A program made the position numbers and the translations under genes. Source: Haloplanus vescus (GTDB taxonomy: Archaea > Halobacteriota > Halobacteria > Halobacteriales > Haloferacaceae). From it: a stretch of DNA of 64,000 bases. Shown here in pieces: positions 2,762-13,416 of the stretch. The first letter of the stretch is position 1, and each line of letters starts with the position of its first letter. The stretch covers positions 62,001 through 126,000 of the forward strand of contig NZ_FNQT01000003.1 in the NCBI RefSeq assembly GCF_900107665.1. The letters are read 5' to 3'. The notes beneath the pieces were generated by a model. The model was not told the origin of the DNA, did not search any database, and saw only the letters and a program-made list of their open reading frames with translations.

Positions 2762-3544
2762 ATGACTGAGGACATCGTCGTATCTGTCGATTGGCTCGCG
2801 GCCCACTTAGACGAGGTGCGCGTCGTCGACGTGCGCGACGCGTGGGAGTTCGACGGCATCGGACACGTGCCGGGGGCGGTTAACGTCCCCTTCGACCGCT
2901 TCCGAAGCAGCGAGGGCGATGCGGGGATGCTGCCCGGCGCCGAGCGCTGGAAGACGCTGATGGAGGAGGCGGGTATCGACTCTGACGACCGACTCGTCGC
3001 GTACGATGACGAACACGGCGTGTTCGCCGCCCGATTCCTCGTCACCGCGATGCTGTACGGCCACCGCGATGTGCACCTGCTCGACGGCGACTTCAGCGCG
3101 TGGAACCGAGGTCACGAAACGACGAGCGACGCGCCGTCAACGCCGTCGGCCACCTACGACGTTCGAGAGCCGGAGGCGTCGCCGCTGGTGGACTTCGAGG
3201 ACGTGGAAGCGGCCCTCGACACCGATGCCACCATCGTCGATACCCGCGAACCCGAGGAGTACGCTGAAGGACACCTACCGGGCGCCGTCCAACTCGACTG
3301 GCGCGAACTCGTCGACAGCGAGACTCGGGGCCTGAAACCCGACGCCGAACTCGAATCGATTCTCACCGAGCGCGGAATCACGCCCGACAGACGGGTCATC
3401 CTCTACTGCAACACCGCCCGCCGCATCAGTCACACGTACGTCGTCCTCAAGCACCTTGGCTACGAGCGGGTCGACTTCTACGAGGGGAGTCTCACGGAGT
3501 GGCGCGAGCGAGGCGGTCCACTGGAAACCGAGGCAGACGCGTAG
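2762..3544 (+). CDS. tssB: Second thiosulfate sulfurtransferase (rhodanese)
   Basis: A 260-residue two-domain rhodanese, paralogous to the divergent tssA. DVRDAWEFDGIGHVPGAVN marks the first domain; the second has DTREPEEYAEGHLPGAVQLDW and the catalytic loop YCNTARRISH, with the persulfide cysteine near residue 222. The ATG at 2762 starts the recognisable MTEDIVVSVDWLAAHL sequence; the longer frame from 2570 runs through the promoter region and is rejected. The two active loops differ (CRIGERSS versus CNTARRIS), so the enzymes may prefer different donors or acceptors. Confidence 0.92.
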   Translation: MTEDIVVSVDWLAAHLDEVRVVDVRDAWEFDGIGHVPGAVNVPFDRFRSSEGDAGMLPGAERWKTLMEEAGIDSDDRLVAYDDEHGVFAARFLVTAMLYGHRDVHLLDGDFSAWNRGHETTSDAPSTPSATYDVREPEASPLVDFEDVEAALDTDATIVDTREPEEYAEGHLPGAVQLDWRELVDSETRGLKPDAELESILTERGITPDRRVILYCNTARRISHTYVVLKHLGYERVDFYEGSLTEWRERGGPLETEADA

Positions 3545-3545
3545 C

Positions 3546-4547
3546 TCAATCTTCTGCGACGGGGACGCGATTGAGTTCCGAGGAGAGAATCCGACCCATC
3601 TCGACGACGAGCGCGATAGCGAGCGGTCCGGCGATGATGCCGACGGTGCCGAGCGTGAGCAAGCCACCGACGAAGCCGACGAAGTAGAGGCTCCCGGGCA
3701 GGTCGGCCGTCTCGCGGGCGAGGCGCGGGCGAATCACGATGTCGGGGAGCCACGCGACGAAGAGGCCACCGAGGACGAAGACGAGGGCGGCCTGCGTCGG
3801 GTCGCCGACGGCCAAGTGCGCTACGGCGAGCAAGCCGACGAGGAGCGACGGTCCGACCACGGGGAGGAACTGTAGAATGGCCGAGAGAACGGCCAGCGTG
3901 AGGAAGTAGGGGTAGCCGAGGAGGAAAAAGAGCACCAGCGCGACGACGAAGGTGCCAGCGGCCGTCGCCGCCTGAAGGACGTAAATCGCGAAGAGCGTCG
4001 ACCGAGTGCGACGATTCAGCGCCCGTGCAACGTCGCGGTAGCCGTGCGGAACGATGGCTATCATCGCACGGTGCGTGTCGGCCGTCCGCGAGAGGAGGGC
4101 GAAGACGACCATCACGAACACGGTGAGTTTGAGCGAGAGGACGGGCGCAGCGAGAGCGGACGCGCGAGCGAGTCGACGGCCGAAAGCGACGACGAGGGCG
4201 CGGGTGTCGGTGAGGGATACCGTCGTCGAGAAGCCGTACAGATCGAGCGAGACTGTCGGTGGGAGCGACGCGAGAAAGGCGATGATGGCGTCCAATCGCC
4301 GGACGACGACGAAGGCGAGCGGAGAGGCGAGGAGGACGACGGCGGCGACGGCAGTCACCGTCGAGACGAAACTCGCCCCCCACGGCGAGAGGCCACGCCG
4401 AGTGAGTTCCTCCCGAAGCGGGAAGAGGAGGTACGCCACCGTCACCGCGAAAAAGACGGTGGCGAGAACGTCGGCGATGAGAAGCGCCGCGGCCAGGGTC
4501 AGCAGGCCGAACAGCGCTCCGAGCACGTATCGACGGTCCAGTGTCAC
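3546..4547 (-). CDS. AI-2E family transporter (PerM-like membrane protein)
   Basis: A 333-residue polytopic membrane protein of the AI-2E/PerM family (PF01594): two hydrophobic N-terminal helices, a soluble stretch (about 100-145), then about six more helices including GYPYFLTLAVLSAILQFLPVVGPSLL and the family-typical LYFVGFVGGLLTLGTVGIIAGPL. Known members include Na+/H+ antiporters and exporters; substrates differ and cannot be predicted. The GTG start at 4547 (VTLDRRYVLG) is chosen over an ATG at 4598, whose residues lack haloarchaeal character. It faces tssB tail to tail with a 1-nt gap. Confidence 0.85.
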   Translation of the reverse strand: MTLDRRYVLGALFGLLTLAAALLIADVLATVFFAVTVAYLLFPLREELTRRGLSPWGASFVSTVTAVAAVVLLASPLAFVVVRRLDAIIAFLASLPPTVSLDLYGFSTTVSLTDTRALVVAFGRRLARASALAAPVLSLKLTVFVMVVFALLSRTADTHRAMIAIVPHGYRDVARALNRRTRSTLFAIYVLQAATAAGTFVVALVLFFLLGYPYFLTLAVLSAILQFLPVVGPSLLVGLLAVAHLAVGDPTQAALVFVLGGLFVAWLPDIVIRPRLARETADLPGSLYFVGFVGGLLTLGTVGIIAGPLAIALVVEMGRILSSELNRVPVAED

Positions 4548-8790: not shown

Positions 8791-8822
8791 TCGCCCCCCA
8801 CCCCTTCGTTTCGAGTGGAACC
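8791..8822 (-). promoter_or_regulatory. Origin recognition box A (ORB)
   Basis: Read on the minus strand, this is GTTCCACTCGAAACGAAGG followed by GGTGGGGGGCGA. It contains the conserved haloarchaeal ORB core CGAAACGAAGGGG plus the trailing G-string. It points away from the AT-rich element, mirroring box B. Orc1/Cdc6 initiators bind such sites through their winged helix. Confidence 0.88.
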
Positions 8823-8875
8823 GTTCATCGGGCCGGTGGGCGAGTAGAAATCGGAGCGAGCTAGGCTAGTATTCC

Positions 8876-8958
8876 CCGACAACGACAACTAAAATAACTG
8901 TTTTGTTCGCTGTGCGGGTGTTGTTTTGTATACTATGTATTATAGATTTCCCTCCTAG
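8876..8958. other. AT-rich candidate duplex unwinding element
   Basis: About 80 nt rich in A/T (for example ACTAAAATAACTG, GTTGTTTTGTATAC and TATGTATTATAGATTTC) lie between the inverted ORBs A and B. In such GC-rich DNA this is the most easily melted sequence of the region, so it is the likely site of strand opening. Confidence 0.75.
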
Positions 8959-8993
8959 AACAACCGGCGACACCCCACCCCCGCCTCTCTGCC

Positions 8994-9022
8994 GTTCCAC
9001 CCGAAACGAAGGGGTGGGGGGG
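8994..9022 (+). promoter_or_regulatory. Origin recognition box B (ORB)
   Basis: GTTCCACCCGAAACGAAGG followed by GGTGGGGGGG. It is the same element as box A in the opposite orientation, differing at one position of the first half (CCC for CTC). The two boxes are about 170 nt apart across the AT-rich element. Confidence 0.9.
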
Positions 9023-9282
9023 TCGGATGGGTCGTGGTACCGTTCGACACTATCGGTAACCGTCTCCCAGCCGGTTCGCGGACTGACACGCTCGGTCGGC
9101 ACAGTTCGTGTGAACGCACTCCCCCATCGCGTGGGAACCACAACCCCCGCCCGCTTCCCGTCGAACACCACCCACCCTTGATGTCACTCACTCTGGGGCT
9201 CGGTTCGTCGCTCGAAATCGGGCCGAGTTCGGGTTCGTTCGGTTCCGAGGGGAAGGTTTTTCTACTACCTCCCCCTCTGTTT

Positions 9283-9321
9283 CCCCTGGATCATCTGGAC
9301 GTACTGAGCCAGTACCAGGGG
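9283..9321. other. Interrupted hairpin upstream of orc1
   Basis: CCCCTGG (9283-9289) pairs with CCAGGGG (9315-9321), and nested CTGG (9295-9298) pairs with CCAG (9309-9312), leaving a 10-nt loop and small internal bulges. It lies between ORB B and ORB C. It could form in the orc1 leader RNA or extrude from DNA at the origin; nothing in the sequence decides between these. Confidence 0.5.
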
Positions 9322-9357: not shown

Positions 9358-9380
9358 CTCCACCCGAAACGACGGGGTTC
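9358..9380 (+). promoter_or_regulatory. Origin recognition box C, short form
   Basis: CTCCACCCGAAACGACGGGG then TTC, ending 5 nt before the orc1 start codon. It keeps the CGAAACG core but has C for A in GAAGGGG and lacks the G-string. Its position over the translation start suggests it could also let Orc1 repress its own gene. Confidence 0.78.
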
Positions 9381-9385
9381 AACGA

Positions 9386-10918
9386 ATGGATTCGAACGAC
9401 ACACCGCCGGACGACCACGCCGACACCGAGAACCCGGACGAGACCGATCTACATGGTGCACCCGCGCGTGACCGGACGACGGATATCTCCCGCGACGTCG
9501 ACATCGACGACGTCCTCGACGACGAGGACGACGACAACCAGGGCCTCTTCGACGACTTGCTCTCTGGCGAGCCTATCTTCGAGAACAAGGAGGTTCTCCG
9601 CCCCTCGTACACGCCACACGAACTCCCCCACCGCAACGAACAGATCAATCAGATGGCGACCATCCTCGTCTCGGCGCTCCGAGGCGATACGCCGTCGAAC
9701 ATCCTGATATACGGGAAGACCGGGACGGGTAAGACGGCGAGTGCGAAGTTCGTCAGCAAGGAGCTGGAATCCACCTCCCAGAAGTACGATGTCCCGTGTG
9801 AAGTCGAGTACATCAACTGCGAGGTGACCGACACGCAGTATCGCGTCCTTGCGCAACTCGCCAACAAGTTCATCGAGAAGAATCACGACGTCATCGACGA
9901 CCGACTCGACGACTTGCGCGACCTGCGCTCCCGTGTCGTCGACGACGAGGCGACGCTGACCGACACCGAGTACGGCTCCCTCGACGCCGTCGACGACCGA
10001 ATCGACGCACTCGAAACGGACCGCGAGGAGATGGAACCGGTCCCCATGACCGGGTGGCCAACCGACCGCGTCTACAGTTCCTTCTTCGAGGCCGTGGACT
10101 ACCACGAACGCGTGGTCGTCATCATGCTCGACGAAATCGACAAACTCGTCGAGAAATCGGGCGACGACACGCTCTACAACCTCTCGCGGATGAACTCGGA
10201 ACTCGAAACCTCCCGCATCTCCATCATGGGGATTTCGAACGACCTGAAGTTCACCGACTTCCTCGACCCCCGCGTCAAGTCGAGTCTCGGCGAGGAGGAA
10301 ATCGTCTTCCCGCCGTACGACGCCAACCAGCTCCGGGACATCCTCCAGCATCGCGCCGACGTGGCGTTCAAGGGCAACGCACTCACCGAGGACGTCATCC
10401 CGCTCTGTGCCGCCTTCGCGGCGCAGGAACACGGGGACGCCCGCCGCGCACTTGACTTGCTCCGGACGGCCGGCGAACTCGCCGAGCGCGGCCAAGCCGA
10501 CACCGTCGAGGAGAGCCACGTCCGGCAAGCCCAGGACAAAATCGAACTCGACCGGGTTGTCGAGGTGGTACGCACGCTCCCCACCCAGTCGAAAATCGTC
10601 CTCTTCGCCATCATCCTCCTCGAGAAAAACGGCGTCCACAACATCAACACGGGCGAGGTGTACAACATCTACAAGCGCCTGTGCGAGGAAATCGACGCCG
10701 ACGTACTGACCCAACGCCGCGTCACGGACCTCATCTCCGAACTCGACATGCTCGGCATCGTCAACGCCGTCGTCGTGAGCAAGGGTCGCTACGGCCGAAC
10801 CAAGGAAATCAGCCTCTCGGTTCCAGTCGAAGAGACGGAGGCCGTCCTCCTCTCCGATTCGCGACTGGGCGACATCGAGAACGCCCAACCCTTCGTGCAG
10901 GCGCGCTTCGACAACTGA
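9386..10918 (+). CDS. orc1: Orc1/Cdc6 replication initiator, oriC1 type
   Basis: A 510-residue AAA+ initiator. It has an acidic disordered N-terminus (1-55), Walker A GKTGTGKT (110-117), an insertion rich in Asp/Glu (about 168-220), Walker B VVIMLDEID (244-252), sensor motifs near FTDFLDPRVKSSLGEEEI, and a C-terminal winged helix (from about 415) that binds ORBs. The LDEIDKL and GDARRALDLLR signatures are typical. The gene lies directly next to the origin with ORB C touching its start, as expected for the cognate initiator. It loads the MCM helicase at the origin. Confidence 0.97.
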   Translation: MDSNDTPPDDHADTENPDETDLHGAPARDRTTDISRDVDIDDVLDDEDDDNQGLFDDLLSGEPIFENKEVLRPSYTPHELPHRNEQINQMATILVSALRGDTPSNILIYGKTGTGKTASAKFVSKELESTSQKYDVPCEVEYINCEVTDTQYRVLAQLANKFIEKNHDVIDDRLDDLRDLRSRVVDDEATLTDTEYGSLDAVDDRIDALETDREEMEPVPMTGWPTDRVYSSFFEAVDYHERVVVIMLDEIDKLVEKSGDDTLYNLSRMNSELETSRISIMGISNDLKFTDFLDPRVKSSLGEEEIVFPPYDANQLRDILQHRADVAFKGNALTEDVIPLCAAFAAQEHGDARRALDLLRTAGELAERGQADTVEESHVRQAQDKIELDRVVEVVRTLPTQSKIVLFAIILLEKNGVHNINTGEVYNIYKRLCEEIDADVLTQRRVTDLISELDMLGIVNAVVVSKGRYGRTKEISLSVPVEETEAVLLSDSRLGDIENAQPFVQARFDN

Positions 10919-10964
10919 CAAACGCGTCCGTACTCCTCGTCCAGCCTACTCTCCAGTCGAAACG

Positions 10965-11750: not shown

Positions 11751-11829
11751 CAATCTGAATTGATTGTCGGGTGAGTTGAAGGTTCTGGACTTCCGGCACG
11801 CTTTTGCCCGCACCTATCCTGGCTCCCTT

Positions 11830-13416
11830 GTGCCTCTGGAGACCCCCGCCCGCATCGTCCGCGAACTCGCCCAGCGGGGCTACAACGCCGAACGCGAAGC
11901 CGTGACGCTCCTCGCGGGCGCCGACGACTCGGCGGCCGCCCTTGACGCCGCCGTCGAGGCGGCGCCGGATGACGCCCTCCGACTCACCGCCGACCACGCT
12001 CGGACGGCAGTCGAGCGAGTGGCCACCGCCGCGACCGACGGGCCGTCTCCGACTCCGACCGACACCGCAGACCAACACCCCTCCGTTTCGACTCCATCGT
12101 CCCCATCCAACTCGGGGAATCAGGCTAAAAACGCTCCACTCGAAACGAAGGGGAACGCCGCGGAGACGCAGGCGGTCGGCGCCGACTCGGACACCACAGC
12201 CGAGGCCGTCGACCGCGCTATCGACATCGCTGGCGACATCACTGGGCGAAGCACCGGAACCGGCGAGTACGGCGACTTCGTCTCCGTCTTTCGCGACCGC
12301 TACGAGAAGCTCTCGGGGAAGCTCCGGGGGCGGGTGAACCACCGTCCGGCGTCCGCCGTCGCGGACATGACCGGCGGCAGCGACGTGGCGATGATCGGCC
12401 TAGTGAACGACGTGCGCTCCTCCGCGAACGGTCACTGGATCGTCGAACTCGAAGATACGACCGGGACCTTTCCCTGCCTCGTCACGAAAGACCGCGACAT
12501 CGCCGGCCTCGTCGACGAGCTCCTCCTGGACGAGTGTATCGCCATCGAGGGGACCCTCTCCGACGACGCGGGCATCGTCTTCGTCGACTCGCTTCACTTC
12601 CCGGACGTGCCCCGGACGTACAAGCCCTCGACCGCCGACCGCCACGTGCAGGCGGCGCTCATCTCCGACGTCCACGTCGGGAGTCAGGAGTTCATGGCCG
12701 ACGCCTGGCATCGCTTCGCCGACTGGCTCCACACCGACGAGGCCGAGGCGGTCGAATACCTCCTCATCGCGGGCGACATGGTCGAGGGCGTCGGCGTCTA
12801 CCCTGACCAGGACGAGGAGCTCGACATCGTCGACATCTACGACCAGTACGACCGCTTCTCGGAGTACCTGAAGGAAGTCCCCGGCGACTTGGACATCGTC
12901 ATGATTCCGGGTAACCACGACGCCGTCCGCCTCGCGGAGCCACAACCCGGCTTCGACGAGGAACTTCGCGACATCATGTCCGCCCACGACCCCCGAATCG
13001 TCGGCAACCCCGCCACCGTCACGGTCGAGGGTGTCTCCATCCTCATGTACCACGGCGTCTCGCTCGACGAGGTCATCGCCGAACTCCCCGAGGACAAGGC
13101 GAGTTACGACGACCCCCACCACGCGATGTACCACCTGCTGAAGAAGCGTCACGTCGCACCGAAGTACGGCGGCCACATGCGCCTCGCACCGGAGGAGGAG
13201 GACTACCTCGTCATCGAGGACGTGCCCGACGTGTTCCACACGGGCCACGTCCACAAGTTGGGCTACGGCAAGTACCACAACGTCCTCTCGGTCAACAGCG
13301 GGTGCTGGCAGGCGCAGACGGCGTTCCAGAAGAGCGTCAACATCGACCCCGACGCCGGCTTTGCCCCCATTGTCGACCTCGATACGCTCGATTTGACCGT
13401 CCGGAAGTTCGCCTAA
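11830..13416 (+). CDS. polD1: DNA polymerase D small subunit DP1 (exonuclease)
   Basis: A 528-residue DP1, the proofreading subunit of archaeal replicative polymerase D. The GTG at 11830 gives the family start VPLETPARIVREL; the TTG upstream is rejected. Domains: an N-terminal helical region (1-75), a low-complexity linker (about 80-130), an OB fold (about 180-270), then a calcineurin-like 3'-5' exonuclease with SDVHVGSQ, IAGDMVEGVG, IPGNHDA and HTGHVHKLG, all metal ligands present. The catalytic large subunit DP2 is not in the window. The linker DNA carries two ORB-like sequences (12075-12158). Confidence 0.95.
   Translation: MPLETPARIVRELAQRGYNAEREAVTLLAGADDSAAALDAAVEAAPDDALRLTADHARTAVERVATAATDGPSPTPTDTADQHPSVSTPSSPSNSGNQAKNAPLETKGNAAETQAVGADSDTTAEAVDRAIDIAGDITGRSTGTGEYGDFVSVFRDRYEKLSGKLRGRVNHRPASAVADMTGGSDVAMIGLVNDVRSSANGHWIVELEDTTGTFPCLVTKDRDIAGLVDELLLDECIAIEGTLSDDAGIVFVDSLHFPDVPRTYKPSTADRHVQAALISDVHVGSQEFMADAWHRFADWLHTDEAEAVEYLLIAGDMVEGVGVYPDQDEELDIVDIYDQYDRFSEYLKEVPGDLDIVMIPGNHDAVRLAEPQPGFDEELRDIMSAHDPRIVGNPATVTVEGVSILMYHGVSLDEVIAELPEDKASYDDPHHAMYHLLKKRHVAPKYGGHMRLAPEEEDYLVIEDVPDVFHTGHVHKLGYGKYHNVLSVNSGCWQAQTAFQKSVNIDPDAGFAPIVDLDTLDLTVRKFA
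12075..12158. promoter_or_regulatory. Inverted pair of ORB-like sites inside polD1
   Basis: A minus-strand site at 12075-12097 reads GGAGTCGAAACGGAGGGGTG. A plus-strand site at 12134-12158 reads CTCCACTCGAAACGAAGGGG then AACGC. Both contain the ORB core CGAAACG(G/A)AGGGG; the plus site matches box A over CTCGAAACGAAGGGG. They lie about 3 kb from the origin, in the DNA for the disordered polD1 linker, and repeat the minus-then-plus layout of oriC with a short A-rich spacer. Confidence 0.6.

Follow-up and report, generated by a model that had tools for sequence, protein, structure and literature searches.

An inverted pair of Orc1-type ORB sites conserved within the polD1 coding sequence of haloarchaea is a candidate non-origin Orc1-binding module

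Many haloarchaea hide two facing signals for the replication initiator Orc1 within the gene of a replicative polymerase, polD1, and these seem to mark a place of control or storage rather than a second start of replication. The two sites share the ORB motif, lie at a constant place in the gene with a nearly constant spacing, are conserved as DNA and differ from the ORBs of the origin oriC1. Judged from these sequence features, the pair could be a conserved non-origin module for binding of Orc1 that sequesters the initiator and/or couples it to the expression of orc1 and polD1, an explanation to which we give an even chance of being right. In the accessible parts of earlier reports, ORBs, G-strings, oriC1 and intergenic ORBs flanking the orc genes are already known (PMC3528665, PMC7776575, PMC4595724), and neither a description of ORBs inside polD1 nor ChIP or footprint results at this gene were found in the open-access literature. 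The surveys of haloarchaeal origins, as presented in the available text of two of these papers, took only the intergenic regions beside orc/cdc6 genes (PMC3528665, PMC4595724), which left them blind to an intragenic pair.

The pair was studied in the window, which is the whole 64-kb stretch of Haloplanus vescus DNA that was analysed and also contains oriC1 and the gene for its initiator. The inner ORBs of oriC1, both of the long class (GGGGTGGGGGG), were matched at 8801..8819 on the minus strand and at 8996..9014 on the plus strand, and the region between them (8820..8995) has an AT-rich stretch whose GC content falls to 30% over 60 nt. An extra ORB-like site with two mismatches (TCCAGGGGAAACAGAGGGG; 9272-9290, minus strand) is located between oriC1 and orc1, and a short-class ORB (GGGGTTCAA; 9359..9377, plus strand) immediately 5' of the ATG at 9386 that starts orc1/cdc6, the initiator gene of oriC1 (9386..10918, plus strand). 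One gene on the other strand separates orc1 from polD1 (11830..13416, plus strand), the open frame of which begins at 11764, with a likely and conserved GTG start at 11830; its product was assigned to DP1 by the Pfam domains DNA_pol_E_B and metallophosphatase.

A previous reading of this DNA, made from the sequence only, had placed two inverted Orc1-type cores inside polD1 in minus-then-plus order, and both were found exactly there, with 38 bp between the ORB frames and 57 bp from start to start. The minus site, TGGAGTCGAAACGGAGGGG followed by TGTTGG (12078..12096), is of the short class, without the extended G-string, as is the class of the plus site, TCCACTCGAAACGAAGGGG followed by AACGCC (12135..12153), and the spacer between them (12097..12134) has 55% GC. 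Their respective cores are CGAAACGGAGGGG (12078-12090, minus strand) and CGAAACGAAGGGG (12141-12153, plus strand). Compared with the 19-nt ORB TCCANNCGAAACGNAGGGG, the minus site has two mismatches and the plus site none, and the ORB core TCCA..CGAAAC..AGGGG is present in both. The minus site codes for part of HPSVSTP and the plus site for part of APLETKG, around residues 105-130 of the protein P0001, within the stretch of lowest confidence (92-174) of a structure model that was weak overall (mean pLDDT 54) and was used for the linker only, with no claims on the fold. A partial copy 3' of orc1 (10951..10964, plus strand; CTCCAGTCGAAACG / TCCAGTCGAAACG), also pointed out in that reading, is present as well, though without the G-run, and is probably not functional. 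Over 82 loci, the interval 3' of orc1 contained 17 ORBs with up to two mismatches.

Within the H. vescus genome (2.78 Mb), the core CGAAACGNNGGGG occurred seven times, five of them within 3.35 kb, and its reversed control was absent, which goes against a random frequency of the cores genome-wide. The two other exact-core matches, at C3:343916 and C5:19762, are without the TCCA half and resemble chance occurrences. When up to two mismatches were allowed, TCCANNCGAAACGNAGGGG was found six times in the whole genome, always within the 3.4 kb that run from oriC1 to polD1. At three mismatches, a scattered background was detected (27 matches in total vs 8 for the reversed control), and a loose 13-mer with up to two mismatches barely exceeded chance in the window (13 vs 7.4). 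The significance of the pair thus derives from the exact cores, their clustering and the comparison with relatives.

For this comparison, polD1 was detected in 291 of the 293 genomes of the order. A set of 101 loci was used, consisting of our own and 100 picked for spread among the best-scoring matches listed, which favours genomes near our own, and the pair in each locus was taken as the best match in the linker. The best inverted pair was spaced by 57 bp from start to start in 82 of these loci and by 54 bp in 8, as expected if relatives keep the cores where the linker varies; absence of the cores from close relatives, the alternative considered in the sequence-only reading, was not what was found. 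In this sample, with labels assigned by hand from the genome listing, every one of the 7 families and 43 of the 47 genera had pairs with one of these spacings, and pairs with no more than three mismatches per site were present in 69 loci from 36 genera. The base frequencies of the 90 polD1 pairs agree with those of oriC1 over the ORB core. Among 80 named loci, which overlap the genomes of the 101-locus set and are not independent of it, the pair was present in 70 (57 bp in 64, 54 bp in 4).

An even draw among the haloarchaea, with 27 genomes besides our own, yielded 12 good pairs (54 or 57 bp and at most six mismatches in total), 8 cases with one strong site only (up to two mismatches) and 7 with neither. 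Among the genomes without a good pair were the seven from genus g2 and several from family f12. In all seven loci of genus g2 (L074, L078, L081, L085, L092, L131 and L133), the plus site was kept with 0-3 mismatches and the minus site was missing. Likewise, Haloplanus ruber has the plus site only, Halobellus salinus the minus site only and Haloquadratum walsbyi J07HQW2 neither a pair nor a plus site, and the polD1 sites of Haloferax are degenerate. Several lineages have thus lost the pair or keep it on one side only, and it is not essential throughout. Genus g2 represents a natural single-site variant of the polD1 pair, in which the minus site was lost.

The gene orc1 was located within 6 kb upstream of polD1 in 82 of the 101 loci, and the same order can be read from the available part of a report on Hfx. 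volcanii, with orc1 at 258-1952 and polD1 at 2942-4540 (PMC2841640). The genomes of the other 19 loci do all hold orc1, in 18 cases on the same contig at a distance of 8-221 kb. The 57-bp pair persisted with polD1 placed 8-193 kb from orc1; the 221-kb case showed a weak pair, with five and two mismatches, and the spacing was neither 54 nor 57 bp in 3 of the 18 distant-orc1 loci. A simple spill-over from oriC1 is ruled out by this persistence of the pair in polD1 far from orc1. A search with TCCANNNGAAACNNNGGGG and up to two mismatches in 36 non-haloarchaeal loci (L218-L253), of which 18 also include orc1, gave no site in the N-terminal portion of DP1, and an ancestral euryarchaeal feature is consequently not supported. 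Because the pair is kept far from orc1 and was not found in the DP1 N-terminus of these non-haloarchaeal loci, the module is most plausibly a haloarchaeal invention that belongs to polD1 itself. In two related non-haloarchaeal genomes of family f25, a single ORB-like site was seen some 1 kb inside DP1 (TGCAGTGGAAATRGAGGGGG; L220:5789 and L224:6640, after orientation).

Judging from codon choice, the constraint on the pair is at the DNA level. The codons of the linker match the ORB, with GAA for E in 101/101 cases (background 24%), CCA for P in 93/93 (5%) and ACT for T in 73/73 (4%), and the same was observed for the further ORB-forced codons GGA for G (78/78; background 7%) and GTT for V (70/75; 6%). 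With one locus per genus, counting the loci that have the residue, the values were 43/43 for GAA, 39/39 for CCA, 34/34 for ACT, 35/35 for GGA and 34/34 for GTT. The p-values of a first codon test were biased by the choice of the pair as best match, and this was corrected by searching each re-coded sequence anew. When 200 synonymous versions of each linker, drawn from the codon usage of its gene, were searched in this way, 92 of the 101 genes beat all of their re-codings, and a pair score of 6 or less was reached by 0.5% of the re-codings compared to 86 of the 101 genes. In the alignment, the spacing of the pair is fixed although the linker otherwise varies in length, and the spacer peptide varies between species while its length is almost invariant. 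Together, the synonymous-codon tests and the fixed spacing lend support to the earlier suggestion that a disordered linker tolerates such a constraint on its DNA. With 300 shuffled patterns, an inverted pair appeared in none of the loci, compared to 71 of 101 for the real pattern, 64 of these at 57 bp; a chance origin of the pair is ruled out by the genome-wide counts, the shuffled patterns and the synonymous re-coding.

In the explanation that we favour, two short-class inverted ORBs, at a fixed 57 bp or sometimes 54 bp, are written into the codons of a disordered segment, and the Orc1 encoded at oriC1 would bind them, because ORBs are the sites of that protein. Orc1 occupies an ORB as one monomer, with polarity, and oriC1 of Sulfolobus requires ORB2 as well as ORB3, according to the accessible sections of PMC12141716; on the polD1 pair, two monomers would bind in one fixed arrangement. 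Loading of MCM there would be unproductive, as the pair has neither the extended G-string nor an AT-rich opening. Bound Orc1 would be kept away from oriC1, and the pair would act as a small sink that damps initiation, by analogy with oriC2D of Haloarcula hispanica. The occupancy by Orc1 may also feed back on the expression of orc1 and polD1, because the short class is also found at the start of orc1.

In bacteria, datA and the titration of DnaA are an example of initiator sites that lie away from the origin and may limit the free initiator. This titration is named as a comparison in the available text of the H. hispanica study (PMC3936714); the polD1 pair resembles it in having initiator sites outside the origin, whereas the initiator and the motif are other ones and the polD1 sites lie in the coding sequence of a polymerase. 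As far as the same text goes, oriC2D is a non-origin ORB region downstream of cdc6E that lowers the activity of oriC2, two downstream ORBs had a moderate effect, and titration of the initiator was proposed from genetics (PMC3936714). The polD1 pair would be similar, with separate non-origin ORBs downstream of the initiator gene, and its ORBs do lie outside the origin on the orc1 side in the 82 loci with orc1 close upstream. In contrast, oriC2D belongs to oriC2/cdc6E, is intergenic and has 11 ORBs in 722 bp, whereas in polD1 two ORBs of the oriC1 type are intragenic, have a fixed spacing and are spread over the order. A many-ORB cluster, such as the 11 ORBs of oriC2D or the 3 of Halorubrum lacusprofundi that the available text mentions (PMC3936714), was not found in polD1, which has two. 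Several observations go against the sink: a fixed spacing in one gene exceeds the needs of a plain sink, two sites in a gene are few compared to the intergenic cluster of oriC2D, and a good pair was present in just 12 of the 27 genomes of the even draw, with one-sided or lost pairs in several lineages.

The main rival explanation, possible but rather unlikely, is that Orc1 on the pair would directly control polD1 transcription, for instance by acting as a roadblock within the first third of polD1, in such a way that the initiator sets the supply of polymerase; with the ORB at the orc1 start, both genes would form an Orc1 regulon. The permanence of the module in polD1 even at 8-193 kb from orc1 is consistent with this. 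So is the finding, in 75 of 82 loci, of a plus ORB (up to three mismatches) close to where orc1 starts, 71 without and 4 with the extended G-string, although the starts were guessed mechanically, so that the positions are rough and a few of the matches are origin ORBs. By its sequence and position, this short plus ORB suggests autoregulation of Orc1. A short-class ORB inside orc1 in 25 of the 30 loci of family f7 also argues for direct control, as does Orc1-2 of Sulfolobus islandicus, a non-initiator relative that the accessible part of one paper presents as a global regulator of gene expression (PMC9738581). The likeness to the latter is in the action of an Orc1-family protein on gene expression; the difference is that Orc1-2 is a non-initiator, whereas the polD1 sites are ORBs of the oriC1 class. 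On the other hand, the minus site lies anywhere between about 190 and 400 nt from the start of polD1, so there is no fixed promoter geometry.

The ORB of family f7 (up to three mismatches) is part of an insert within the coding region of orc1, around 1.0-1.2 kb from its 3' end (for example in L043, L044, L046, L056, L064, L066, L075, L083 and L087), and in none of the 25 loci has the extended G-string. It is read in the same frame as in polD1 and encodes nearly the same peptide, SP-x-ET-x-G, with ORB-type codons. The synonymous test gave values below 0.01 in 21 of the 25, and 11 of the 24 examined had a weak partner site on the minus strand, at 48 bp. It is tentatively proposed that two functional classes of ORB exist, in which the long ones would open the origin and the short ones, in or at replication genes (the start of orc1, the polD1 linker and, in one family, the Orc1 insert), would let Orc1 directly regulate itself and the replicative polymerase. 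If this were true, sites concealed in disordered coding DNA would link initiation to the supply of polymerase.

Sites for partition such as parS occur in coding sequence, and by analogy the pair could be a chromosome-organising or partition-type landmark near the origin, which we consider improbable. Its fixed inverted geometry, its mostly origin-proximal position and its persistence in coding DNA would fit such a landmark, but its sequence is that of the initiator's sites and points to no partner protein other than Orc1.

An accessory initiation site, one of the roles suggested in the sequence-only reading, is disfavoured by the comparison with oriC1, and an accessory or dormant replication origin appears very unlikely. 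The pair does share with the inverted pair of oriC1 the 19-nt ORB core, the minus-then-plus order and the region of the replicon, at about 3 kb from oriC1 in our own genome. However, the extended G-string, defined as at least four G at positions +20 to +24, was present in 150 of the 150 inner ORBs of oriC1 (75 pairs) and in 0 of the 180 polD1 ORBs (90 pairs), and the available text on H. hispanica describes it as essential for oriC1, with loss of plasmid replication in G-string mutants (PMC3936714). The inner pairs of oriC1, upstream of orc1, were spaced by 179-425 bp, with 50 distinct values in the 75 loci with an inner pair, compared to the fixed 57 or 54 bp in most polD1 genes, a contrast of 50 vs 2 spacings for which the polD1 set was itself selected by these two spacings. 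Between the polD1 ORBs, just 38 bp apart, no AT-rich unwinding region was found, the mean GC of the spacer being 64%, compared to 69% in the flanking DNA and 63% over the remainder of polD1. Finally, an origin would be expected in an intergenic region adjoining orc/cdc6, whereas the pair is inside polD1 and is kept there at long distances from orc1.

Least probable of all is a protein-level cause, by which (D/N)PSVSTG and PVET(E/K)G, two conserved islands of the alignment in an otherwise variable linker, would serve DP1 as short functional motifs, with the ORB arising as a by-product: the codons used are those of the ORB instead of the ones that the gene prefers, residues change at the degenerate positions of the ORB (PVET, PPET, PLET, PHET, PSET, PDET), a PSVSTG-like peptide without the DNA site was found with strict patterns in 0 of the 15 loci lacking the site, and SP-x-ET-x-G recurs with ORB codons in the unrelated Orc1 insert. 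Conservation of the peptide only, as the main cause, is ruled out by the codon and re-coding tests and by this strict-pattern count.

The polD1 pair bears on the coordination of replication initiation with growth in archaea. If the module for sequestering or coupling Orc1 works as a sink or a switch, it would provide a simple handle, as both sites can be erased synonymously without change in the protein, which makes the control of oriC1 and polD1 by Orc1 directly testable in culturable species. The polD1 linker is, in addition, a clear case of a DNA signal that shapes a disordered protein segment. Extra perfect ORBs were also observed tens of kb or more from oriC1 (for example in L275 around 1547, L276 around 1525 and L277 around 1539); in some genomes, these distant sites are apparently at gene ends or intergenic, with no shared gene.
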